Assembly (NCBI RefSeq): GCF_020618775.1
Contig: NZ_JAESVB010000012.1
Coordinates: 1-64,000, forward strand
Origin: Acidisoma silvae
Lineage (GTDB): Bacteria; Pseudomonadota; Alphaproteobacteria; Acetobacterales; Acetobacteraceae
Direction of reading: 5' to 3'
Length of the DNA: 64,000 nt
The notes under the pieces are model-generated. The model had not been told where the DNA came from. It saw nothing but the letters and a program-made list of their open reading frames with translations, and did not search any database. Of this stretch, positions 11,835 to 34,211 are shown in pieces; within the stretch, counting starts at the first letter, position 1, and every line of letters begins with the position of its first letter. A program made the translations under genes and the position numbers.

Positions 11835-12706
11835 CCTCGCGCCGTGCCGTCTTGGCAGGCGCGGCTAGCGCCTGTTTGATACCTGGCTTGGCAGACGCGG
11901 CGGGTCTCTCGCCGCGTCTTGTCGTGCTGGACTGGGGATTGCTGGAAACGCTTCTGGCGCTGGGCGTGGCACCGATAGCGGCGGCGGAGACGGGCAATTA
12001 TGCGCGAACGGCCGCGACCCTGCCGGTGCCGCGCAGCGTCACCGATATCGGGCTGCGGTTGGACCCTGATCTGGAATGGATCAGCGCGCTCAAGCCAAAT
12101 GCCATTCTCATCAATTCGGCGCAATCTGCGCAGGTGCCGGTTTTGAAGCCGCTCGCACCGGTCTGGCGCTTTACCATCTATGACGGCAGCGGCTTGCCCT
12201 TGCGCAATGCCGTCAGCGTCACGCGCAATCTAGGCGGCAGGATCGGACGCAGCCAGCAGGCCGGCAGTCTGGTAGCTGCCACACAGCAAAGCCTGACGCC
12301 TCTGGCCGGCTATGACGGCAGGTCCATTCTGCTTTTCAGCTTTCTGGATGCGACGCATATCGCGCTCTATGACCGGTCAAGCCTCGCCGGCAATGTGCTC
12401 TCCGCGCTCGGTCTCGCGAACGCCTGGGGGCAGGGTGGTGGCGGCTGGGGCGTGGTGCCTTTGTCCTTGCCGGCGCTGGCACAAAGCCCCGAGGCGCGGC
12501 TGATCTGTTTCGGCCCCGTCCCACAACCAGCCCGACGCATGATGGCGCAAAGCCCGCTGTGGCGCGGCCTGCCGGCGGTGCGGGCGGGTCGGCTGCGGTT
12601 TTTGCCGCCGGTGTGGAATTACGGCGCGCTGCCCACCGCCATGCGCCTCGCTGGCCTCATGCGCGCGGCACTCGCGCGCCCGGACGGGCAGGACCGCGTC
12701 GGCTGA
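11831..12706 (+). CDS. FhuD-like periplasmic siderophore-binding protein (Tat signal)
   Basis: 291 residues from a GTG whose last two bases overlap the receptor's TGA; another GTG lies one codon earlier. It opens with a short twin-arginine signal (SRRAVLAGAASACL). The body fits the FhuD/BtuF fold: LDWGLLETLLALGVAPIA, then LDPDLEWISALKPNAILI, the pattern of type III ferric-siderophore binding proteins. It carries the hydroxamate-type iron complex from the receptor to FhuB. A Tat rather than Sec signal is common for FhuD relatives in alphaproteobacteria. The stop overlaps the fhuB start (TGATG). Confidence 0.85.
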   Translation: MTSRRAVLAGAASACLIPGLADAAGLSPRLVVLDWGLLETLLALGVAPIAAAETGNYARTAATLPVPRSVTDIGLRLDPDLEWISALKPNAILINSAQSAQVPVLKPLAPVWRFTIYDGSGLPLRNAVSVTRNLGGRIGRSQQAGSLVAATQQSLTPLAGYDGRSILLFSFLDATHIALYDRSSLAGNVLSALGLANAWGQGGGGWGVVPLSLPALAQSPEARLICFGPVPQPARRMMAQSPLWRGLPAVRAGRLRFLPPVWNYGALPTAMRLAGLMRAALARPDGQDRVG

Positions 12707-19330: not shown

Positions 19331-19701
19331 ACCGGCCGTAACCGGCTGGGGCGATTATCTCGGCCGCCGAAATATTCCCTTGCAATATCAAGGATTGCCA
19401 GCCGCCGTTATTGTGCGGCTGGCAAATATTGCTCGCTTTTTTGCTGGAATGCCCCATCAAGAGGCAAAAATAATTGATGGAACAGCCATCAATGGCAGAA
19501 ACGGTTCGTAAGAATTCTGGAAATCTAGCCGTCAAATCATCAATCTGTCGCCAAGATCGGTGTTGCAACGACCGCATATCGATGCTTATTTTCAACGAAA
19601 TGGGAGCGTCTTATCCTTCGGCGATTTGCCAAGGTTTGTTTCTGTTTAAGGATATTTGTTTCTTAGCGTCCAATTTCGCAATTTTTAAGAAATGGTGCCT
19701 T
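19331..19701. other. 371-bp A/T-richer intergenic region before the AIDA/Hint gene
   Basis: An 11-bp hairpin at 19395-19425 is described separately. From about 19430 onward A+T content is clearly higher than in neighbouring genes. The AIDA/Hint reading frame stays open back to 19474, but that stretch has irregular composition and no repeats, so I read it as leader. I saw no convincing promoter. Confidence 0.55.
19395..19425. terminator. hairpin after the Nudix gene, candidate terminator
   Basis: TTGCCAGCCGC and GCGGCTGGCAA form a perfect 11-bp stem with a 9-nt loop. A T-run (19436-19441) follows after a 10-nt gap rather than directly, so intrinsic termination may be weak. It lies 65 bp past the Nudix stop. 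Confidence 0.5.
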
Positions 19702-22700
19702 ATGTCCACCATCACGGTCAGCTCCGGCCAGACGCTCAGCGGTGCCGTTATCAGCGGGCAGGAGATCATCGTCAGTTCCGGGGGCACGCTGCTATCCGCG
19801 ACGCTGGAAGCAGGGGTCAGCCTGGAAATCGAAAGCGGTGGCGTCGCTGACCATACGACGGCCACCGGGTCAGGTTACGTCTATAGCTATATTGATATCT
19901 CTTCCGGGGGTACGGCTATAGGAACCGTGCTGTCCAGCGGTGCCGAAGCCTTTGTCGGCGGCGTCGACAGCGGCAGCGTCATTCAGAATGGCGCCTATGA
20001 CGATGTCGAATTCGGCGGTTCATCTGTTTCAGCAACGGTGAGCAGCGGCGGCGACGTCTATGTCGGTCTCGGCGGACACGCGGTTGGGACGACAGTCGCC
20101 AGCGGTGGCATTTTCTCTGCGCCGACAGTCATCAGTTCCGGGCAGGTTCTGTCCAATGTCACCGTCAGTTCCGGCATGCGGCTCGAAGTGGATTCCGGCG
20201 GCGTCATTCAGGGTGGAACGGTTGATGGCGGTGGCACACTCTATATTGGCGGTGGTGTCGGTTCCAACGTTACGGTGTCGGGCAGCGCTGCGGATATCAT
20301 CGCGGGTGACAGCGGCAAGATCGTCTCAACGACGATAGCGGGGGGTGGCAGCGGGTTCGTCTGGAGCGGCGGTCTCGCTGAAGACACGCTGATCAGCGGT
20401 GCCGGGGCAGGAATCAGCTATTTCTTAATGTCCGGTTTGACTGTCGAATCCGGGGGAACTTCGCTCGACAGCGTCATCGTTTCCAACGGGTATGAAACGG
20501 TGTCGGCCGGCGGCACGGCAATCAGCACCACCGTAATTTCAGACGGCACGCTGAACGTGCTTCCCGGTGGCACTGCCGTCACTGTTACCAATGATGGCGG
20601 CTCGGCCTATATTCCCGTCTATATCAGCGGTGCGACCACCCTGTCCGGCGTCGTCGTTACGGCGGCGGATACGATCGTCGTCGAATCCGGCGCCACGCTC
20701 GTCGGCGTTACCGTCGAAGCCAATGGCTGGCTGGTGGTGGAGGCGGGCGGTCTCGTCAGCGATGTCACGATCGACGGTATCAGCACGTCCTCGGGCGAGC
20801 TGACGATCTCGTCAGGCGGCGTGGCGACGGGCGTGTCCATCAGCGCCTATGGCTATGAGACTGTCGCGTCCGGCGGCACCGTCGTCGATACGACGCTGGC
20901 CGGCGGCTACATGGCCATATCAAGCGGTGGAATTGCCAGCGCAACAATTGTCGAAGGAAGCAGTGGCGCTTCGGGCATTTACGATGGTGAGATTTACGTC
21001 AACGGCGGTGGCACGGCTCTGCGCACCACCATCAGCGCCGGTGGATTGGTTTATGATCAAGGCAAAACGATCAGCACCATCGTCGGCTCGGGTGGCAATG
21101 AGGTCGTCTCATCAGGCGGGACGGCGGTTTCCACAAGCATCCTTAGCAGCGGAGCGGTTTTGGTTTTGTCCGGTGGATCGGATATCGCGACCACCGTATC
21201 GAGCGGCGGGATATTGTCGGAGACGGTTATTATCGGTTCCGGTCAGACGCTGAGCGGCGCAACTGTTTTCGCCGGAGAGACTGTGGTGATCGAGGCCGGC
21301 GGTTCGGCCGTCAATCTTACCATCGAGACGGGCGGCATGGCCGATGTTGATCGTGGCGGCACGGTCGATATCGCCACGGTTTCGGGCGTTTTTCCCCAGG
21401 CATCCTATCTCATCGTATCGGCGGGAGGTGTCGCGATCAGTGCGACCGTCGTGGGTTATGCCGCACTCGACGTCGCAGGCGGTGTCGCCAGCGACACCGT
21501 GGTGGAGGGCACCAGCGGCTCTATCGGCGTGATCTACGTATATCAGGGCGGTAGCGCCGTCAGCACGACGCTTGACTATAACGGACTGGCCGTCGTCTCC
21601 AGCGGCGGCATAATGGTGAAAACCATTGTTAGTAGCGGCGGAGATCAACAGGTCAGCTCAAGTGGTGTTGCCATATCAACTACCGTTCTGAGCGGCGGAT
21701 CGCTCGTCGTCTCGGCTGGTGGTTCGGATATCGCAACCACCGTATCGAGCGGCGGCCGGGATATCAACACGATCACCGTCAGTTCCGGCCAGACGGTCAG
21801 CGGATTGACGATTGGGTCCACCACCGACCTGATCATTGATGCAGGCGGGACGGCGACCGGTTTGCTGGTCAGCGGCGGTAGCGTGACGGTCCAGGGCGGG
21901 ACGCTCATCAGCGCGACGGTTGACGGCATCCTGATATCAAGCAGCGGTGTTAATTATGATCTTGGCGCCATTGATGTCATTTCCAATGGCGTCGCGATCA
22001 GCACTTTGGTGGGGCTGAATGGGTGGGTCGTCGCCAGCGGAGGAAGCGTTCTTGATACCGTGATCAACGGCGGCGACGTTATGGTCGATAGCGGTGGCGT
22101 CGCCCGCGATACCGAGGTCGGCTCGAATGTCGGCTCAGACAAGCCGAGCGCTCTTTTTGTGGAATCCGGCGGCACGGCCATAAAAACCACGGTCAGCGAC
22201 GGTGGGGAAGCTTTGGTGTCGGCCGGTGGCACAGCCATCTCGACCACTGTCCTGTCTGGCGGTGCCCTCTATGTCTCTGGTGCCGTCGCGACCGATACTG
22301 TCGTCAGCAGCGGCGGCTTTGCTCTTGTCACCGACATTGTCAGCAGCGGGCAGATCGTCAGCGGCATCATCGTCAGTTCCGGACGGGCACTCGATATCCT
22401 GTCCGGAGGGACGGTTATCAGCGCAACGCTGAATGGCGGTGACATGACCGTGGAATCCGGCGGCACCAGCATCAGCACGACCATAGAACTCTATAGCCAA
22501 GAATATGTCAGCGGCGGCACCGCCTTAGCGACGACGATCAGCGGCGGTGACCTGAACCTCTATGGCGGCTTTGCCAGTGGTGTCACCATTCTCGCCGCCA
22601 ATCTCGGTGAATTTTACGGCCTCACTGAGGAATATATCGGGTCCGGCGGCACCAGTATTGACGCGACTGTCGGCGCTGCCACCGAGATTTATGTCGTATC

Positions 22701-23820
22701 CGGCGCGACTGCCATTTCCACGACCGTGCTGTCAGGCGGATGGGCCTATGTATCGGGCGGCGTCACATCGTCTTTGATCATCAGCAGCGGCGGCAGGCTT
22801 TACAGGACAGATTACGTCAGCAGCGGCCAGACCGTCAGCAATGTCGTGGTCAGCTCCGGGCAGACGCTGGAGGTCACGTCCGGCGGCACGATCGACGGTG
22901 CGACCCTTGACTTCGGCGCCCTGACACTGGACGCTGGTGCTGTCGCCTCCGGGACGATCGTCTTTGATGAGGATTCGAGCCTGTTCATCGAAGACTTGGC
23001 TATGCCCGCCGCTACGATCAGCAATTTCCAGGTTTTTGACGCCATCTATCTGCCCGATATCGCTTTCGTCAGCGGTGGCTCTGCGACGCTTGATACCGAA
23101 ACCGATGCCCTTACAGTTACTGAAGGTGGCAAAAGCTACTCGCTTAATCTCGCTGGCGATTATTCCGGCTTGGCCTTTTCGCTTGGGCAATATGGATCGG
23201 GTACGCTGCTCACGGATAGCGTCGCCTGCTTCGCGGCCGGCACGCTCATCCTGTCGACGCGCGGGGCTGTGCCGGTCGAGCATCTGCGCGTCGGTGACGT
23301 TCTGCGCAGACCGGACGGCCTGCTCGCCCCTATTACCTGGATCGGCGGCCGCTATGTCGATTGCCGGCGCCATCCGCGCCCGGCCGACGTCATGCCCGTG
23401 CGCATCGCGGCCCATGCCTTCGGCCCGGATATGCCGGCGCGCGACCTGCTGCTGTCACCGGACCATGCCATCTACGCCGCCGGCGTGCTGATCCCGGTGA
23501 AATATCTCATCAACGGTGCCACCATCGCCCGGCTGCCGGTCAGCAGCATCGCCTATTTCCATGTCGAATTGCCAAGCCACGGGGTCATTCTTGCGGAAGG
23601 TCTGCCCGTGGAAAGTTATTTCGACAGTGGCGACCGTGACCAGTTCGCGGAAGGCGCCGGTGTCGTCGCCCTGCATCCCGTCTTCGGGGCCGACCGCTGC
23701 GACCTCATGCTGCGGGCAGACGCCCTGGGCTATGCGCCCTTGCGGGTGACCGGCCCGGAAGTGAACAGGGTGCGGGCGCTGCTCACGGCTCGCATCCCCG
23801 CGCAACGAGCGAGTGGCTAG
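19702..23820 (+). CDS. AIDA-type repeat protein with C-terminal Hint_2 (hedgehog/intein) domain
   Basis: 1372 residues from ATG 19702, chosen because the repeats begin at once (STITVSSGQTLSG) and related proteins start this way. No signal peptide. Residues 4-1170 are Ser/Gly/Thr/Val repeats of the AIDA/autotransporter passenger kind (SSGGTA, TTVSSGG), predicting a long beta-solenoid. At about 1175 a Hint domain begins with CFAAGTLI; VEHLRVGDVL follows and the histidine motif LLLSPDHAIY is intact. Hint domains cut the peptide bond before their Cys, so the passenger may be released or joined to something; no splicing asparagine is evident. No autotransporter barrel is present. Its stop shares CTAG with convergent rsmD. 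Confidence 0.85.
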   Translation: MSTITVSSGQTLSGAVISGQEIIVSSGGTLLSATLEAGVSLEIESGGVADHTTATGSGYVYSYIDISSGGTAIGTVLSSGAEAFVGGVDSGSVIQNGAYDDVEFGGSSVSATVSSGGDVYVGLGGHAVGTTVASGGIFSAPTVISSGQVLSNVTVSSGMRLEVDSGGVIQGGTVDGGGTLYIGGGVGSNVTVSGSAADIIAGDSGKIVSTTIAGGGSGFVWSGGLAEDTLISGAGAGISYFLMSGLTVESGGTSLDSVIVSNGYETVSAGGTAISTTVISDGTLNVLPGGTAVTVTNDGGSAYIPVYISGATTLSGVVVTAADTIVVESGATLVGVTVEANGWLVVEAGGLVSDVTIDGISTSSGELTISSGGVATGVSISAYGYETVASGGTVVDTTLAGGYMAISSGGIASATIVEGSSGASGIYDGEIYVNGGGTALRTTISAGGLVYDQGKTISTIVGSGGNEVVSSGGTAVSTSILSSGAVLVLSGGSDIATTVSSGGILSETVIIGSGQTLSGATVFAGETVVIEAGGSAVNLTIETGGMADVDRGGTVDIATVSGVFPQASYLIVSAGGVAISATVVGYAALDVAGGVASDTVVEGTSGSIGVIYVYQGGSAVSTTLDYNGLAVVSSGGIMVKTIVSSGGDQQVSSSGVAISTTVLSGGSLVVSAGGSDIATTVSSGGRDINTITVSSGQTVSGLTIGSTTDLIIDAGGTATGLLVSGGSVTVQGGTLISATVDGILISSSGVNYDLGAIDVISNGVAISTLVGLNGWVVASGGSVLDTVINGGDVMVDSGGVARDTEVGSNVGSDKPSALFVESGGTAIKTTVSDGGEALVSAGGTAISTTVLSGGALYVSGAVATDTVVSSGGFALVTDIVSSGQIVSGIIVSSGRALDILSGGTVISATLNGGDMTVESGGTSISTTIELYSQEYVSGGTALATTISGGDLNLYGGFASGVTILAANLGEFYGLTEEYIGSGGTSIDATVGAATEIYVVSGATAISTTVLSGGWAYVSGGVTSSLIISSGGRLYRTDYVSSGQTVSNVVVSSGQTLEVTSGGTIDGATLDFGALTLDAGAVASGTIVFDEDSSLFIEDLAMPAATISNFQVFDAIYLPDIAFVSGGSATLDTETDALTVTEGGKSYSLNLAGDYSGLAFSLGQYGSGTLLTDSVACFAAGTLILSTRGAVPVEHLRVGDVLRRPDGLLAPITWIGGRYVDCRRHPRPADVMPVRIAAHAFGPDMPARDLLLSPDHAIYAAGVLIPVKYLINGATIARLPVSSIAYFHVELPSHGVILAEGLPVESYFDSGDRDQFAEGAGVVALHPVFGADRCDLMLRADALGYAPLRVTGPEVNRVRALLTARIPAQRASG
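19705..23220 (+). repeat. seven long protein super-repeats of AIDA type
   Basis: Segments opening with SSGQT(L/V)S or a close variant start near nucleotides 19714, 20120, 20621, 21226, 21772, 22333 and 22813, which is residues of about 4, 140, 307, 509, 691, 878 and 1038. Spacing runs from 140 to 200 residues. Each contains many short SSGG(T/S) turns. Blocks beginning near 21174 and 21721 are almost identical at DNA level over about 35 bp, which suggests recent internal duplication. Confidence 0.8.
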
Positions 23821-26831: not shown

Positions 26832-27602
26832 TTATTCGGCGGTTTGTGAGGCCAGCGTGCCGATGTGAACCCGCGCCGGCTCGTACGGCGTCAGGCCCGG
26901 CAGGCGTTCCTCAAGCTGCGTGATGGCGCGGTCGATATTCGCGAAGGGAATGGTGTTGATCTGCCATGGCGCGAAACGCCACCAGGCCAGACGCTCCAGC
27001 GCTGCGCATTGCGCGAAGGAAAAGCGCATGCGCAGCACCTGCGCGGGATTGCCGCCGACAATCGCATAGGGCGGAACATCTTTGGTGACGACGGCGGCAC
27101 CGGCGATGACGGCACCATTGCCGACCGTGATGCCCTGCGCCAGGAAAGCGCCATGGCCGATCCAGACGTCATGGCCGATGGTGGTCTTGGCCAGAAAGTC
27201 GTTCACGGTCCGCGCATTGCGCACGGCGATGTCGCCGGGCGGCCCGGGGCGGAAGGCGTGGTATTCGGCGGCACCGTCAAAATCATGCCCGACCTCCAGC
27301 ATATTGCCTTGATAGGCGTAGAAGACGGGGCTGGTGCTCAGCCAGTCTGTCGGATGCGCGCCGCGCCCGACCTGAACATTCTCGCCGAAGGAGCAATAGC
27401 GCCCGATGCGGACTTCGCTGAAAAATCCGCTCACGGCATAGCTGAAAGCGCCCATCTCGAATTCATGGCCGATGGCGATCCATTTCGGGCCGCAGGGCGG
27501 TTCGAAGCTTGCCCGATCCGGTAAGGCGAAACCATTGGCGACGAAATACTCGACACCAGCCTTCGTCAGTTTCTCTCGCAACGCATCGGATAGAATGGCC
27601 AT
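26832..27602 (-). CDS. hexapeptide-repeat O-acetyltransferase (CatB/VatB-like)
   Basis: 256 residues from ATG 27602, preceded by GGGGTG; a longer frame to 27659 is less likely. Left-handed beta-helix hexapeptides are visible (IGRYCSFGENVQVG, then IGHDVWIGHGAFLAQGITVG and VIAGAAVVTKDVPPYAIVGG). The catalytic His of the xenobiotic acetyltransferase group probably lies in RGAHPTDW. It transfers acetyl from acetyl-CoA to a sugar, antibiotic or surface polymer; the target is not known. It stands alone, 10 bp past the convergent tadA. Confidence 0.82.
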   Translation of the reverse strand: MAILSDALREKLTKAGVEYFVANGFALPDRASFEPPCGPKWIAIGHEFEMGAFSYAVSGFFSEVRIGRYCSFGENVQVGRGAHPTDWLSTSPVFYAYQGNMLEVGHDFDGAAEYHAFRPGPPGDIAVRNARTVNDFLAKTTIGHDVWIGHGAFLAQGITVGNGAVIAGAAVVTKDVPPYAIVGGNPAQVLRMRFSFAQCAALERLAWWRFAPWQINTIPFANIDRAITQLEERLPGLTPYEPARVHIGTLASQTAE

Positions 27603-27753
27603 GATGTCACCCCGGGACGGGCAGGGTGGTAACATGGCAAAACCTAATTTTCTCTTCACCCGAAACGAAGTTCGGGAGTGCAGGCGCGTTTCTTTATATT
27701 TGTTTATAGATATCTGAACGCTTGTCGGACGTGATTAAAGCCAGCTTCAAGCC

Positions 27754-27830
27754 GTCATGCCCGCGAAAGCGGGCATCTTCTCCCGGTTGTGACGCCAAAG
27801 CCAGAAGATCCCCGCCTGCGCGGGGATGAC
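27754..27830. repeat. dispersed palindromic repeat, copy A (paired units)
   Basis: Two 28-bp units face each other: 27754-27781 and 27803-27830, inverted with about 24 matching positions. Each can fold alone, e.g. ATGCCCGC-GAAA-GCGGGCAT, a stem closed by a GNRA tetraloop. The same unit recurs near 47904-47983, 50732-50763 and 61904-61983, always between genes. It lies between the convergently ending/starting acetyltransferase and amidohydrolase regions. Confidence 0.9.
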
Positions 27831-27854
27831 GATCCTTCAGGCAAACCACTCGCC

Positions 27855-28886
27855 TCAGCGGCCCTCGAAACCGGTCAGAACATTCACGGCATTGATGCCG
27901 ATCTCCGCCACTGCATAGCCGCCTTCCATGACGAATTGCGTCGGCAGGCCGAGCTTGGCGATGCGTTCGCCCATGCGGGTGAAATGCTCATGATCCAGCT
28001 TGAACTGGGAAATCGGGTCGCCGAGATAGGTATCGACGCCGAGCGAGACCAGCAGCACGTCAGGTGCGTACTCCGCCACCCGCCGGCAGCCGGTTTCCAG
28101 CGCGGCACTCCAAGCTTCCCAATCCGTGCCCCAGGGTAAAGGCAGGTTGAGGTTGAAGCCTTCGCCCGCGCCGGCGCCGGGCTCATCCGCGAAGCCGAGC
28201 AGATAGGGGTATTCCTGCTCCGGCGTCGCATGGATATTGACCAGAAGAACATCGTCGCGCTGATAGAAAATCTGCTGCGTGCCATTGCCGTGATGGTAAT
28301 CGACATCCAGGATCGCAACGCGCTTGGCGCCCTGGTCCAGCACGTGCTGCGCGGCAATGGCGGCATTGTTGAGGAAGCAATAGCCACCGTAATGATCCGA
28401 CCCCGCATGATGTCCCGGCGGACGGCATAGCGAAAAGACGCTGCTGGCGCCCGAAACGATGGCGGCGGCGCCCGTCAATGCCACATGCGCCGAGCTTTCG
28501 ATCGCCTGCCAGCTCGTCGCCGTCAGCGGTGTGCCGGCATCGAAACAGTAATGGGCGAGGCGGCCTTCCAAATTCTGCGGCACGCGGTCGGCGCGGAAGC
28601 CGCGCGTAAAGAAGGTGAAGGGAAAGGCGCCGCCCTTGCGACCCAGCTTTTCCCATTCCGCGAAGCCGTGGCGCAGCAAATCCACCATGCCGGCATCATG
28701 AATGCGGGTAATGGCGTCGAGCGGAAAGCGCTCAGGCGCCAGTACCGGGCCAAGACCCACGGCCAGGGCGCGGTCCAGGATGATTTGGGCACGTTCGGGT
28801 TTTTCGAAGGCGGCGACGAATTCGCCGGAATTCAATTCGCCAGGGCTCTGATGCAGCGCGTGATCAGGCGAATAGATGACGTCCAT
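27855..28886 (-). CDS. acetylpolyamine amidohydrolase (histone deacetylase superfamily)
   Basis: 343 residues. The zinc hydrolase core of class II deacetylases is complete: catalytic His159-His160 (RPPGHHAG), metal ligands Asp196 and His198 (DVDYHHGNGTQQIFY) and Asp285 (GVDTYLGDP), and transition-state Tyr324 (EGGY). It most resembles bacterial acetylpolyamine amidohydrolases, which remove acetyl groups from acetylated putrescine, cadaverine or spermidine. It follows potABCD on the same strand, so imported acetylpolyamines are the likely substrate. Its Shine-Dalgarno GGGGGGAG is buried in the 3' arm of the hairpin at 28893-28918. Confidence 0.9.
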   Translation of the reverse strand: MDVIYSPDHALHQSPGELNSGEFVAAFEKPERAQIILDRALAVGLGPVLAPERFPLDAITRIHDAGMVDLLRHGFAEWEKLGRKGGAFPFTFFTRGFRADRVPQNLEGRLAHYCFDAGTPLTATSWQAIESSAHVALTGAAAIVSGASSVFSLCRPPGHHAGSDHYGGYCFLNNAAIAAQHVLDQGAKRVAILDVDYHHGNGTQQIFYQRDDVLLVNIHATPEQEYPYLLGFADEPGAGAGEGFNLNLPLPWGTDWEAWSAALETGCRRVAEYAPDVLLVSLGVDTYLGDPISQFKLDHEHFTRMGERIAKLGLPTQFVMEGGYAVAEIGINAVNVLTGFEGR

Positions 28887-28892
28887 GAAAAG

Positions 28893-28918
28893 CTCCCCCC
28901 GAGTGACCTCGGGGGGAG
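28893..28918 (-). promoter_or_regulatory. strong hairpin masking the amidohydrolase RBS (or attenuator)
   Basis: On the minus strand CTCCCCCCGAG-GTCA-CTCGGGGGGAG forms a perfect 11-bp, nearly all-GC stem with a 4-nt loop. It starts 7 nt after the potD stop. The 3' arm is the Shine-Dalgarno of the next gene, followed by CTTTTC and its ATG. It can therefore act as a weak intrinsic terminator, as an RBS-sequestering structure opened by ribosomes finishing potD, or as both. Confidence 0.8.
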
Positions 28919-28925
28919 TTGTCGG

Positions 28926-29978
28926 TTATTTCCGGATCAGCGTCCAGATGCGGTCGAAGTCCTTCGTCGCTTTCGCGTCGCAGCCCGGCGAGAAGACGAT
29001 CTTGTAATTCGCCGGCGGGTTGAATTCCGGCGCGGTCGCCATCGCCGGCTGCAGATACTTGTTGGAACCGGCAACGCCGTTCTGGTAGCCCGCGAAATTG
29101 CTTTCGATGGCGGCGTTCTGCGGGTCCATCATGAAGTTGATGAACTTCTTGGCATTCGCCACGTCGGGCGCGCCGACCGGGATGGCGAGGTTGTCCATCC
29201 AACCGGAGCCGCCTTCCTTGGCATAGACGTATTTCAGCGAGGGCTTGGCCTGGCGGGCGCGCATGGCGTCACCCGACCATTGCTCGCTCATCGTCACTTC
29301 GCCAGCCGTCAGGCGGTCGATGATACCGTCGGAGTTATACAGCTTCACGAAGGGCTTCTGCGCTTCCAGCAGAGCCAGCGTCTCTTTCAGATGCGCCGGG
29401 TCGGTATCGCAGGGCGGGTAGCCCAGATAGGTCAGTGCCAGGTTGATGACTTCGCTCGGCGATCCGAACATGCCGACCTGGCCCTTGAAGACCGCCGGCG
29501 GCTTGAACAGCGTCGCCAGGCTGTCCACCGGACCCGGATAGACCTTGGTGTCATAGGTGAAGGAGGTCGTGCCCCACTGCCAGGGAACGGTATATTCCGC
29601 CTTCGGATCCCAGAAGCGCGTCTTCCAGCGCGGTTCCAGGTTCTTGAAGTTCGGCATGTCGCCAGCGTCAACCTTCTGCAGCAGATTCTGGTTGACGAAG
29701 ATCTTCACGAAATCGTCGGAGACGATGACAAGGTCATAGCCCGTGGTGCCGGCCTTGAGCTTGGCGAGCAGGGTCTCGTTCGAATCATAGGTATCGAGCG
29801 TGACCTTGATGCCGGTCTCGGCCGTGAACTTCTTCAGCAGGTCCGGGGCCGTGTAATCGGTCCAGTTGAAGATGTGCAGAACCCCCGCATCGGCGGCATG
29901 GGCCGGCTGGGCCAGGGGCGCGGCCGCGACAGCGGCGGCACCCAGGCCGAAGGCCATCAGGGCAGTCTTGAGGCTCAT
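28926..29978 (-). CDS. potD: spermidine/putrescine ABC transporter, periplasmic binding protein
   Basis: 350 residues from ATG 29978, with GGAGGAA well placed before it. A Sec signal peptide ends at AHAAD. The mature protein opens with VLHIFNWTDYTAPDLL, the hallmark of PotD/PotF, and has the usual acidic and aromatic binding residues in NEQWSGDA-like TMSEQWSGDAM. It delivers polyamines to PotB/PotC. Last transport gene of purD-potA-potB-potC-potD on the minus strand; followed by the RBS-masking hairpin and an acetylpolyamine amidohydrolase. Confidence 0.92.
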   Translation of the reverse strand: MSLKTALMAFGLGAAAVAAAPLAQPAHAADAGVLHIFNWTDYTAPDLLKKFTAETGIKVTLDTYDSNETLLAKLKAGTTGYDLVIVSDDFVKIFVNQNLLQKVDAGDMPNFKNLEPRWKTRFWDPKAEYTVPWQWGTTSFTYDTKVYPGPVDSLATLFKPPAVFKGQVGMFGSPSEVINLALTYLGYPPCDTDPAHLKETLALLEAQKPFVKLYNSDGIIDRLTAGEVTMSEQWSGDAMRARQAKPSLKYVYAKEGGSGWMDNLAIPVGAPDVANAKKFINFMMDPQNAAIESNFAGYQNGVAGSNKYLQPAMATAPEFNPPANYKIVFSPGCDAKATKDFDRIWTLIRK

Positions 29979-30009
29979 TGGAACTTCCTCCGGTATGGAA
30001 GGCTGGGGT

Positions 30010-30882
30010 TCAGGTTGTCGCGGTCGCGGCGGGGGTAGCGGCGCTTGCCGCGGCTCCCGCCTCGTTGGGCCGGCTGATGAGGAAGGCGACCAGCGCAAGG
30101 GCGGCCGAAATCACCAGCAGGATGGTCGAGATCGCATTCACTTCCGGCGTCACGCCCAGGCGCATCATGCCATAGACATAGACGGGAAGCGTGGTGGTGC
30201 CGGCGCTGCTCACCATGAAGCTGATGAGGAAGTCATCCAGCGACGTGACGAAGGCCAGGATGGCGCCGGCCATGATGCCGGGCACCATCAACGGCAGGGT
30301 GATGCGCATGAAAATCCGCCATTCACCGCCATAGAGGTCGCGCCCCGCATCCTCATACGCCGTGCCGATGGTGTTCAGCCGCGCCTGGATAGGCAGCATG
30401 GCGAAGGGCACGCAGAAGACCGTATGCGCCAGCACAAGGTTGAGCACGCCATAGTGGAAGCCGATCGAGGAAAAGAAGATCAGCGTCGTGATGGCGGTGA
30501 CGATTTCCGGCACCACCAGCGGCATCATGACAAGGCTGTTCGCGGCGGCCTCGCCCTTGAACCGTCCGCCACGCTCGAAACCGAGGGCGGCTGCGATGGC
30601 GATGGCCGTGGAGCAGATGGTCGCCAGCACGCCGACGAGCACGGAAACCCAGGCAGCGTGGCGGATGTCGCCGTTATTCGCGACGCGGGAGAACCAATGC
30701 AGGCTGAAACCGGTCCAGACGGTGACGAAGCGATTGGCGTTGAAGGAATAGATCACCAGGATGGCGAGGGGCAGATACAGGAAACCCATCACGATCAGGC
30801 TGAAAATCCCGAAGCCCGGATTATGCCGCCAGTCGAAGGGGCGGATCTTGCGGCGCGCGGCCGTTTGCATCGTGGTTGCCAT
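30010..30882 (-). CDS. potC: spermidine/putrescine ABC transporter permease
   Basis: 290 residues from ATG 30882, two nt after the potB stop; the frame extends to 30933 inside potB. Six membrane helices. The EAA loop for contact with the ATPase reads EDAGRDLYGGEWRIFMRITL, and the segment TSLDDFLISFM is characteristic of PotC/PotI. It forms the membrane channel with PotB. The C-terminal tail is unusually Ala/Thr-rich. Confidence 0.92.
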   Translation of the reverse strand: MATTMQTAARRKIRPFDWRHNPGFGIFSLIVMGFLYLPLAILVIYSFNANRFVTVWTGFSLHWFSRVANNGDIRHAAWVSVLVGVLATICSTAIAIAAALGFERGGRFKGEAAANSLVMMPLVVPEIVTAITTLIFFSSIGFHYGVLNLVLAHTVFCVPFAMLPIQARLNTIGTAYEDAGRDLYGGEWRIFMRITLPLMVPGIMAGAILAFVTSLDDFLISFMVSSAGTTTLPVYVYGMMRLGVTPEVNAISTILLVISAALALVAFLISRPNEAGAAASAATPAATATT

Positions 30883-30884
30883 GG

Positions 30885-31769
30885 TCAAGCTGCCTGCGCT
30901 GCTGCGGCGCGCTTGGTTCGCCAGCGCTGCCACGCGAGAGAAAGAATGACCGCGAAGGTCACGAGCATGGAAAGGGCGGCGCCGAAGGGCCAGTTGCGGG
31001 ACGACGTGAACTGCATTTCGATCAGGCTGCCGATCAGCAACTGCTTGCCGCCACCGAGAAGATCGGGCTGCAGGAAGGAGCCGAGGGCGGGCGCGAAGAC
31101 CAGCACGGTGCCGGCGGCGATGCCGGGCTTGGTCAAGGGCCAGATGACGCGGCGGAACAGCTGGTAGCGATTGGCATAAAGATCATAGGACGCTTCGATC
31201 AGGCGCGGATCAAGCCGTTCCAGCGTCGCATAGATCGGCAGCACCATGAAGGGCAGAAAGGTATAGACGAGGCCGAGCAGAACCGAGCCCTGATTATACA
31301 GCAGCGGCAGCGGGTGGGAGATGAAGCCCAGCCAGCCGAACAGCTTATTCGCCAGGCCCTCGTCGCGCAGAATCAGGATCCAGCAATAGGTGCGGATCAG
31401 CGTATTGATCCAGAAGGGCAAGGACACCAGCGTCAGCAGGACTTTCCGCCGGCCGGGCGACTGGCAGACGATGTACCAGGCCACGGGAAAGCCGATGACG
31501 AGGCTGAGGATCGTCGTTGCCAGCGCAAGATACAGCGAACGGAAAGCGATCCAGAAATAATCCGGCATGAAGATCAGGCTGCCGTCGAAATCCTGATCGA
31601 ACAGCATCTGCACATAGGCGCCGAAGGTCAGCGGCGCCTGCACGCCGCCATAGGGATTGGCGGACATGAAGGAATAGGCGAGAGAAATGAAAAGCGGGAT
31701 GGCCCCGAAAATGCCGATGACGAGGACAGCGGGCAGGATAAGCCAATAGGCGGAGCGTTTGTTCAGCAT
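30885..31769 (-). CDS. potB: spermidine/putrescine ABC transporter permease
   Basis: 294 residues. Six helices; the N-terminus is short and the EAA loop reads EASYDLYANRYQLFRRVIWP. The early motif YWLILPAVLVIGIFGAIPLF and the loop FWINTLIRTYCWILIL are those of PotB/PotH. It pairs with PotC and is energised by PotA, encoded 7 nt upstream on the same strand. Confidence 0.92.
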   Translation of the reverse strand: MLNKRSAYWLILPAVLVIGIFGAIPLFISLAYSFMSANPYGGVQAPLTFGAYVQMLFDQDFDGSLIFMPDYFWIAFRSLYLALATTILSLVIGFPVAWYIVCQSPGRRKVLLTLVSLPFWINTLIRTYCWILILRDEGLANKLFGWLGFISHPLPLLYNQGSVLLGLVYTFLPFMVLPIYATLERLDPRLIEASYDLYANRYQLFRRVIWPLTKPGIAAGTVLVFAPALGSFLQPDLLGGGKQLLIGSLIEMQFTSSRNWPFGAALSMLVTFAVILSLAWQRWRTKRAAAAQAA

Positions 31770-31776
31770 GATGGCA

Positions 31777-32829
31777 TCAATCCAACAACTCGCGTTCAGC
31801 CTCCGTCTCCCAGACGAGGCCCACCTCCGTGCCCTGGGGCAGCTTGGCCGCCCCGCGGATACGGGCGCGCAGGCGGCCGCCCGGAATGGTGATTTCCATC
31901 AGCGTATCCGAGCCGAGGAAGGTCGCGACATCGACGACGCCGCTGATGCGCGGCGTGACGCCGGGGCGCGCGATTTCGATCTTCTCGGGGCGGACGGCGA
32001 TAATGGCATCCGCGCGGCGGCCCAGGCTCTCACCCGGAATGAGGTTCGCCTCACCGATGAAGTCGGCGACGAAACGGTTGGTGGGGTGATCGTAGATTTC
32101 TTCCGGCGTGCCGATCTGCTGCACGCGGCCGGTATTCATGACCGCGATACGGTCGGACATGGCCAGCGCTTCTTCCTGGTCATGCGTCACCAGAATGAAG
32201 GTGATGCCGGTCTCGCGCTGCAGCCGTTTCAGCTCGAACTGCATTTCCTTGCGGAGCTTAAGGTCGAGGGCCGACAGCGGCTCATCCAGCAGCAGCACTT
32301 GCGGGCGCGGCGCGAGCGCACGGGCGAGGGCCACGCGTTGTTGCTGGCCACCGGACAATTGCGCCGGCTTGCGATTGGCGAAATGGGCGAGCTTCACCAG
32401 GCTCAGCGTTTCCTGCACGCGAGCGGTAATATCTGCCTTTTTCCAGCGCAGCATTTCCAGCCCGAAAGCGACGTTCTGCGACACCGTCAGATGCGGGAAC
32501 AGCGCATAGTTCTGGAAGACCATGTTCACCGGCCGCTCGCGCGGCGGCAGGCTGGCGACGTCCTTGCCCTGCAACCAGATTTCACCGGTGGTCGGGTGTT
32601 CGAAACCGGCGATCATCCGCAGCAGCGTCGTTTTGCCGCAGCCCGAAGGCCCGAGAAGGGTGAAGAATTCCTTCTCTTCGATCAGGATATTGATCGCTTC
32701 CAGCGCCCGGTGACCGGTCGCCACATCGCCGAAGATCTTCTCAACGCCCACCACTTCAATGAGGTGGCGGGCAGGGGCGCCCGGTCGGGCTGTCGCTGCG
32801 GGAGCGGCACTCAGCACTTCAGATGGCAT
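31777..32829 (-). CDS. potA: spermidine/putrescine ABC transporter ATPase
   Basis: 350 residues from ATG 32829; a TTG at 32853 is possible. The Walker [10 protein letters not shown], signature [15 protein letters not shown], Walker [13 protein letters not shown] and switch His in THDQEEAL are all present, followed by a TOBE-type C-terminal regulatory domain ([10 protein letters not shown]). It hydrolyses ATP to drive polyamine import. First gene of potABCD. About 116 bp separate it from purD upstream on the same strand, room for its own promoter. Confidence 0.93.
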
Positions 32830-32945
32830 TAGAGAGAGGTCCCCCGGTTGCAATGTGATCAGTTTTCATGGCCCAGCCACCCAATGCAAGTGCTTTGCCA
32901 CTGAAAACGCGATTTATGCATGCGACCCCTCTCCTGCTTGGCCCG

Positions 32946-34211
32946 TCAGGTAAAGTGCGCGCCGATGTCGCGGCGGCAGAATCCCTCGGGCCAGTCAATC
33001 GCATCGACCGTCGCATAGGCGCGGCTGCGCGCCCCGGCCAGGGTCGGCGCCGTTGCATTGACGACCAGTACGCGGCCCCCATCGGCCAGGATTCGGCTGC
33101 CGTCCGCTTTGGTGCCGGCCTGGAAGATTGTCACCTCCACGTCGGCCGCCGCCTTATCCAATCCGCGAATCTCGGTGCCGCGTTCATAGGCAGACGGATA
33201 GCCGCGCGCGGCCAAGACGATGGAGACCGAGGCCTCGGCCCGCCAGCGCGGGGCCACATGCTTGATGCCGCCGTCGCACACCGCCAGCAGGGCGGGCATG
33301 ATGTCGCTATCCAGCAGCGGCAGCAGGGTCTCGGCCTCCGGGTCGCCGAAGCGAACATTATATTCGATGAGCTTCGGCCCCTCCGCCGTCAGCATCAGCC
33401 CGGCGAAGAGGATGCCACGGAAGGGAATGCCGCGACTCGCCATTTCATGCAGGGTCGGGCGAATGATGGTCTCCATCACGCTGTCGCGCAGCTCATGCGT
33501 GAAGCCGGGGGGCGGGGCGATGGCGCCCATGCCGCCGGTATTGGGGCCGGTATCGCCATCACCGACGCGCTTGTGGTCACGCGCCGCGCCGAGAAAAATG
33601 GCATCCGTGCCGTCGCACAGCGCGAAAACCGAGACTTCCGGCCCTTCCAGGAATTCCTCGATGACGACGCGGGCGCCGGCCGCGCCGAAACTGCCCTCCT
33701 GAAGGCAGGCGATGACCGCCTCTTCGGCTTCCTCGACCGTCTGGGCGACGACGACACCCTTGCCGGCGGCCAGGCCATCGGCCTTCACGACGATAGGCGC
33801 GCCACGACGGCGAATGAAATCAAGCGCCTGCTCGGCATCGGTGAAGGCTTCCCAGCGCGCGGTCGGGATGCCGGCGGCATCCGCCACTTCCTTGGTGAAT
33901 TGCTTGCTGCCTTCCAATTGGGCGGCCGCCATGCTGGGCCCGGCGCAGCGGATGCCCTGCTCGTGCAGACGGTCATAAAGACCCGCGACCAGCGGCGCTT
34001 CCGGGCCGGGCACGACGAGGTCGATGGCATTATTGGCCGCGAAACGGGTCAATGCCTCGATTTCAGTCACGGCGATGGGCACAAGCTTGGCGAAGGTCGC
34101 GATGCCGGGGTTGCCGGGGGCGCAAAAAATCTCGGTTACCAGCGGGCTTTTCGCGATCGCGCGCACCAGCGCATGCTCCCGGCCGCCGGACCCCACCACC
34201 AAAACGCGCAT
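32946..34211 (-). CDS. purD: phosphoribosylamine-glycine ligase
   Basis: 421 residues from ATG 34211; an upstream ATG at 34235 is less likely. The N-terminus MRVLVVGSGGREHAL is diagnostic. The ATP-grasp core is seen in KADGLAAGKGVVVA and, later, EYNVRFGDPEAE with the metal-binding Glu and Asn. It makes glycinamide ribonucleotide, step two of purine synthesis. It is divergent from xseA with a 54-bp gap. It precedes the pot operon on the same strand, but a link in function is not evident. Confidence 0.95.
   Translation of the reverse strand: MRVLVVGSGGREHALVRAIAKSPLVTEIFCAPGNPGIATFAKLVPIAVTEIEALTRFAANNAIDLVVPGPEAPLVAGLYDRLHEQGIRCAGPSMAAAQLEGSKQFTKEVADAAGIPTARWEAFTDAEQALDFIRRRGAPIVVKADGLAAGKGVVVAQTVEEAEEAVIACLQEGSFGAAGARVVIEEFLEGPEVSVFALCDGTDAIFLGAARDHKRVGDGDTGPNTGGMGAIAPPPGFTHELRDSVMETIIRPTLHEMASRGIPFRGILFAGLMLTAEGPKLIEYNVRFGDPEAETLLPLLDSDIMPALLAVCDGGIKHVAPRWRAEASVSIVLAARGYPSAYERGTEIRGLDKAAADVEVTIFQAGTKADGSRILADGGRVLVVNATAPTLAGARSRAYATVDAIDWPEGFCRRDIGAHFT

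Follow-up and report, generated by a model that had tools for sequence, protein, structure and literature searches.

A hairpin behind potD that contains the Shine-Dalgarno sequence of an acetylpolyamine amidohydrolase gene in Acidisoma silvae

The window, i.e. the whole stretch of 64,000 nucleotides of Acidisoma silvae contig NZ_JAESVB010000012.1 that was analysed, carries on its minus strand the genes potA, potB, potC, potD and aph, in this order. PotA passes its subfamily cut-off, and the best scores of potB, potC and potD lie below the NCBIfam equivalog cut-offs; on sequence similarity the gene identities hold, namely an HDAC-type acetylpolyamine amidohydrolase behind potABCD. The potD start at ATG 29978 is the choice of our own gene caller, the longest open reading frame beginning at 30098. 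The features are as follows.

30010..32853, minus strand: potA-potB-potC, upstream and co-directional (longest open reading frames 32853-31777, 31769-30885 and 30933-30010)
28926..29978, minus strand: potD, polyamine ABC transporter substrate-binding protein (PRK09501 PotD, E 2.7e-62, below the equivalog cut-off)
28928-28926, minus strand: stop codon TAA of potD
28919..28925, minus strand: 7-nt spacer CCGACAA from the potD stop to the stem
28908..28918, minus strand: 5' arm of the stem, CTCCCCCCGAG, the anti-Shine-Dalgarno arm (from the fold)
28904..28907, minus strand: loop GTCA (from the fold)
28893..28903, minus strand: 3' arm of the stem, CTCGGGGGGAG, which includes the aph Shine-Dalgarno sequence (from the fold and the opening cost)
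28887..28892, minus strand: CTTTTC, spacer from the Shine-Dalgarno sequence to the ATG and weak U-run past the stem
28886-28884, minus strand: start codon ATG of aph
27855..28886, minus strand: aph, acetylpolyamine amidohydrolase with HDAC fold, 343 aa (PF00850, E 1.2e-66; PDB 9gkz_A 'Acetylpolyamine amidohydrolase', E 2.2e-122)

Downstream of aph is a two-hairpin element (27754-27830; GATCCCCGC.TGCGCGGGGATGAC and ATGCCCGCTTTCGCGGGCAT). Its first core pattern was found at 5 genomic positions and similar stems stand in several gaps of contig C4; the element is apparently a dispersed palindromic repeat. Elsewhere in the window, 19474-23820 is a very long repetitive open reading frame of 1448 aa with SSGG-type repeats (by eye), the C-terminal part of which resembles, also by eye, what we take to be a Hint-type domain.

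The gap from the potD stop to the aph ATG measures 39 nt, 26 nt of which are taken up by a hairpin with a perfect 11-bp stem and a GTCA loop. The 3' arm ends in GGGGGGAG, 6 nt ahead of the ATG, and the aph Shine-Dalgarno sequence (SD) within this arm is, by eye, the sole good SD in the gap. The first-pass annotation had described an 11-bp stem 7 nt after the potD stop whose 3' arm is the aph SD, followed by CTTTT and the ATG, and this description proved exact by coordinates and folds. Folded as a 51-nt piece, the region has a minimum free energy (MFE) of -26.2 kcal/mol and a z-score of -4.72, equalled by 0 of 200 dinucleotide shuffles. In longer contexts of 111 and 106 nt the z-scores were -3.19 and -3.47, with 1/200 and 0/200 shuffles as good. 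The stem score of the 39-nt gap was matched by 0 of 20,000 mononucleotide shuffles, and an 11-bp Watson-Crick stem with at least 9 GC pairs was present in 8 of 27,690 39-mers taken every 13 bases from 360 kb of the same genome. Hence the potD-aph hairpin is a real feature. A search allowing loops of 3-12 nt found the stem at a single place in the A. silvae genome, and an exactly repeated element was rejected on this basis.

The SD masking was then compared across aph loci by the predicted cost of opening positions -14 to -6. The comparison covered 91 loci, i.e. 98 minus 7 dropped repeats, some of which may still be the same genome from two collections. With 22.9 kcal/mol for the window and 15.6 and 15.4 kcal/mol for two relatives, three masked Acidisoma loci occupy ranks 1-3, and the median is 4.9 kcal/mol. 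Since only this trio is extreme, a general masking of the aph SD across lineages was rejected. At the loci from other lineages, most aph ribosome sites are accessible, with differing genes upstream. A family search found aph at E <=1e-90 in 11 of 347 genomes and potD at E <=1e-130 in 7 of 347; six of the aph loci came from outside the genus (L142-L147), and the search found no potD immediately ahead of any of them.

Five Acidisoma genomes were compared, the window's own (G000) and G001 to G004, and potD stands directly ahead of aph in all five. A hairpin with the SD in its 3' arm is present in three of them (G000, G003 and G001), with changes in loop, spacer and stem letters. The loops read GTCA in G000 and CTTG and AATC in the two relatives, and the stem-to-start spacers are CTTTTC (window), TCTTTCTTC (G003) and CGAC (G001). 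The aph start of G003 is a GTG with the SD 9 nt away. In G004 a longer, 17-bp hairpin follows potD and leaves the start region and SD outside the stem, and in the 14-nt potD-aph gap of G002 no hairpin was found. Thus, the masking is dispensable for the pathway.

Hairpins are also found behind potD copies that are not followed by aph. Under a strict rule (at least 8 bp, at least 6 GC pairs, start no more than 15 nt past the stop), 7 of the 10 close potD copies of the genus have such a hairpin, a count that is not one of independent cases because the copies are related by descent. The same rule holds at 30 of 410 sampled gene ends, or 22 of 212 when only gaps of at least 30 nt are taken, a sample that includes the window's own potD. 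The seven passing copies include L115, L119 and L120, which have no aph directly behind them, and L114 (G001), which passes via the inner part of its stem. The three failures are L117, L118 and L122, of which L117 folds strongly slightly further on. On a single contig each, G002 and G004 have two close potD copies some 3 kb from each other (L115-L118), only one of which lies directly before aph, and G004 has a third close copy elsewhere.

In other lineages, a GC-rich stem follows potD in 8 of 8 potD-aph gaps shorter than 300 nt, by eye on the folds; at L057 it lies further on, within a larger fold. The strict rule is passed by 4 of these 8 gaps and failed by 4, and both potD genes of another genus in the family (L148, L149) fail it. 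By eye, the stems of L040, L049, L148 and L149 start just past the 15-nt limit. Among the distant PotD-like paralogs of the genus, a strict-rule hairpin was present in 4 of 18 tested, a weak signal; 19 were given, L139 gave no match, L140 was not included, and for 16 of the 18 the aligned part ends at least 90 nt before the stop used. Because hairpins follow potD while aph sites are mostly accessible, potD, rather than aph, is the more constant partner of the hairpin.

The computed features to be explained are hence the stem, its position, the buried SD, the recurrence in three species and the hairpins behind potD in other copies and lineages. We infer from them mRNA protection or termination, low aph output and coupling. 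The reading towards which we lean, somewhat beyond even chances, is that the hairpin forms the 3' end of the potD message, as an exonuclease barrier and/or leaky terminator, and here also locks the aph SD. A hairpin at this end would block 3'-to-5' exonucleases and/or halt some RNA polymerases, and potD, encoding a binding protein needed in excess, would thereby accumulate over aph. In the window species and two relatives the hairpin would lie so near aph that its 3' arm doubles as the aph SD. Free ribosomes would then scarcely be able to initiate aph, and its translation would come mostly from ribosomes that disturb the stem on completing potD. Such a device would set a fixed ratio, with much transport protein and little enzyme, and would not be a sensor. 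As the U-run is weak in the window and absent in G001, protection with some termination is favoured.

Most likely, this is a known kind of device, a 3' hairpin behind a binding-protein gene, in a variant that masks the SD of the gene downstream. Selectively stabilised genes of E. coli end in stable hairpins that lack a U-tract, and the binding-protein genes stabilised there include potD (PMC5927463). The potD-aph hairpin resembles these protective intercistronic hairpins of the malE-malF type (Dar and Sorek 2018, PMC5927463) in being a stable hairpin just behind a transporter binding-protein gene, at the boundary with the next gene. It differs in that it also holds the SD of the next gene, which encodes an enzyme and not a permease. 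Moreover, it lies in the gap, whereas 17 of the 26 described there lie inside the downstream coding sequence, and it is known here from the sequence rather than from RNA data. A second likeness is to clostridial ABC operons, in which stem-loops with few U behind binding-protein genes were described as internal terminators (PMC9045158): a long GC stem, a tail with fewer than 5 U, and a place in the gap behind the binding-protein gene. In contrast to those operons as described, the binding-protein gene is here the last transporter gene, one of the three species lacks a U-run, and the stem overlaps an SD; the term Shine-Dalgarno is absent from the main text of that paper. A keyword search for a terminator hairpin overlapping a downstream ribosome site found no paper with at least 5 of its 6 terms, which we do not take as absence from print, and among the matches listed for Acidisoma or polyamine none was on this topic.

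Could the hairpin be a plain leaky intrinsic terminator after potD, with the SD overlap as a by-product of compact spacing? We consider this unlikely, yet it deserves serious weight. The GC-rich stem-loop of an intrinsic terminator is present (11 bp, 9 GC), and by number of GC pairs it is the top one among 13 terminator-like sites, where 8.3 are expected in shuffles. The gaps at L035, L040, L049 and L108 in other lineages likewise resemble terminators, with a run of at least 4 T after the stem, and the same genome has a similar stem, then ATTTTTTATG, behind an icd-like gene, which also overlaps an SD-like GGGGAG. The first-pass annotation had proposed an attenuating terminator, and the four U of CTTTTC in the window and the TCTTTCTTC of G003 fit this proposal. 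However, G001 keeps the stem with no U-run directly after it, and G004 lacks one likewise. In addition, all three species have their G-rich arm on the 3' side, where an SD has to lie.

A stem acting chiefly as a translational lock, with aph made only by ribosomes that finish potD, is a stricter alternative that we regard as improbable. The downstream SD is indeed predicted to be occluded when the upstream gene is not translated, the window ranking first of the 91 loci. Opening the 6-nt SD core alone costs 17.8, 19.1 and 14.2 kcal/mol in G000, G003 and G001, respectively. With 12 nt occluded, counted from the first stop base, these values become 14.2, 13.1 and 10.2 kcal/mol, and with 15 nt occluded they fall to 4.6, 5.2 and 4.3 kcal/mol, which is background. 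A ribosome halted on the stop codon shields roughly 12 nt in front of it, and thus would open the stem only partly, as the stem starts 7 nt past the stop and full release is reached at about 15 nt. Such a ribosome would need a small forward drift after termination, or its own helicase action, to free the SD. Because the opening cost drops to background at about 15 nt, dependence on potD-finishing ribosomes is nevertheless plausible, and so, on this model, is translational coupling between potD and aph.

The review of coupled pairs with masked ribosome sites (PMC12548453) speaks on both sides. Several coupled genes have structured ribosome sites, and the likeness to potD-aph consists in a downstream SD paired in a strong stem, with stop and start 39 nt apart here. 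On the other hand, structure right behind the upstream stop is reported to go with less coupling. Unlike in those pairs, the potD-aph stem lies wholly behind the upstream stop, outside potD, so elongating potD ribosomes cannot traverse it. The lock is also absent from 2 of the 5 genus genomes. The earlier suggestion that aph expression is tied to ribosomes finishing potD therefore stands as to the buried SD, its layout in 3 of 5 genomes and its release at about 15 nt, and is weakened by the partial opening at a 12-nt cover and by the reported effect of post-stop structure (PMC12548453). A bolder form, in which one 26-nt hairpin was selected for three jobs at once, is a long shot. It would terminate or shield the potD message, keep the aph start closed and yield only to potD-finishing ribosomes; the ratio of import to deacetylation would be set by it and would follow potD translation, and perhaps also polyamine effects on how ribosomes behave.

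We give very little credence to the view that the hairpin is neutral, a GC-rich stem like many others in this GC-rich genome and without a selected function. Such stems are common between genes: in a 464-kb sample of the same genome (the window plus 400 kb), with genes from our own simple caller and not from a published program, a stem of 8 bp or more was present in 52 of the 136 tandem gaps that measure 15-250 nt. When one best stem per gap is counted, it ends no more than 10 nt from a called start in 4 of the 136 gaps. These are potD-aph and the gaps before the starts at window position 11924 and C4 154763 and before the minus-strand gene C4 176923-178761; by eye, the 3' arm carries an SD-like run of purines in 3 of the 4, potD-aph among them. 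Genome-wide, a CTCCCC...GGGGAG stem followed by ATG occurs at 2 places, the potD-aph gap and the one behind the icd-like gene. By these counts the SD-in-stem layout is uncommon, not unique.

The second place (L170, G000:C1:147672-147709, minus strand) lies 33 nt past the gene, named isocitrate-dehydrogenase-like by eye, and its 3' arm could be the SD of a 94-aa open reading frame that has no Pfam match; it is a putative second terminator-SD overlap in this genome. On the plus strand at G000:C4:154730-154763, an SD-like GGGG falls within a 13-bp stem (6 GC), as does the first base of the start codon called for the gene at C4 154763; this is possibly another masked start or an operator palindrome.

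Comparison among the three species bears on neutrality more directly. The stem persists in all three despite the changed loop and spacer, and of 2000 shuffles per gap, 2000 for G000, 2000 for G003 and 1998 for G001 folded less stably than the native sequence. When the window gap received 8, 10 or 13 random substitutions, 6.1%, 2.5% and 1.0% still folded as well as the gap of G001, a result that leaves room for neutrality; this alignment-free null is weaker than the pair count. In a simulation of 8 random substitutions in the arms, all 11 pairs survived in 0.02% and at least 10 in 0.35%, with the reading limited by the use of substitutions only, as G001 itself needs a one-base bulge. Compensatory changes in relatives had been named beforehand as a check. 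A structure-guided hand alignment, fitted to the stem and with only three sequences, gives four two-sided pair changes (the outermost of these pairs is not formed in the window), one paired deletion and one bulge in G001. Plain MAFFT with RNAalifold on the same three species gives 0 two-sided pair changes, in an alignment that places the stem gaps differently from the folds. As the hand alignment was fitted to the stem and n is three, the covariation is suggestive only. Judged from three sequences, the stem is probably selected.

A polyamine- or ligand-responsive switch acting on the stem, which the first-pass annotation had found attractive, is barely credible: gene context speaks for it, but in 27500-33500 no Rfam family matched above its gathering score, the MFE and centroid folds that were made contain one simple stem with no competing fold, and the 4-nt loop differs in all three species. 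Sub-gathering matches in the same interval (mir-762, mir-2796 and sRNA P11, E up to 5) were taken as chance. The expected effect of polyamines on such a stem is stabilisation, not melting. An RNA thermometer was rejected as well, since the in silico SD opening cost is 31.3 kcal/mol at 4 °C and 16.7 kcal/mol at 60 °C, i.e. costly throughout. The reported spermidine riboswitch class is a SAM-I aptamer variant (PMC10853860), and its likeness lies in the polyamine-related gene context; in contrast, potD-aph has a single 26-nt hairpin with neither the four-stem-junction aptamer nor an Rfam match. Polyamines can stimulate initiation at obscure or distant SDs or weak start codons (PMC4405209). Of the three species only G003 resembles such sites because of its GTG start and SD 9 nt away, whereas the window SD is just 6 nt from an ATG.

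The preferred reading, in which a hairpin ends the potD message and at the same time locks the aph SD, would make this locus a compact natural case in which the 3' hairpin of a binding-protein gene has merged with the SD of its downstream neighbour. Should the coupling be real, the locus would also offer a testbed for a terminating ribosome that opens a stem only 7 nt downstream. For polyamine biology, this reading argues for a fixed expression ratio over sensing.
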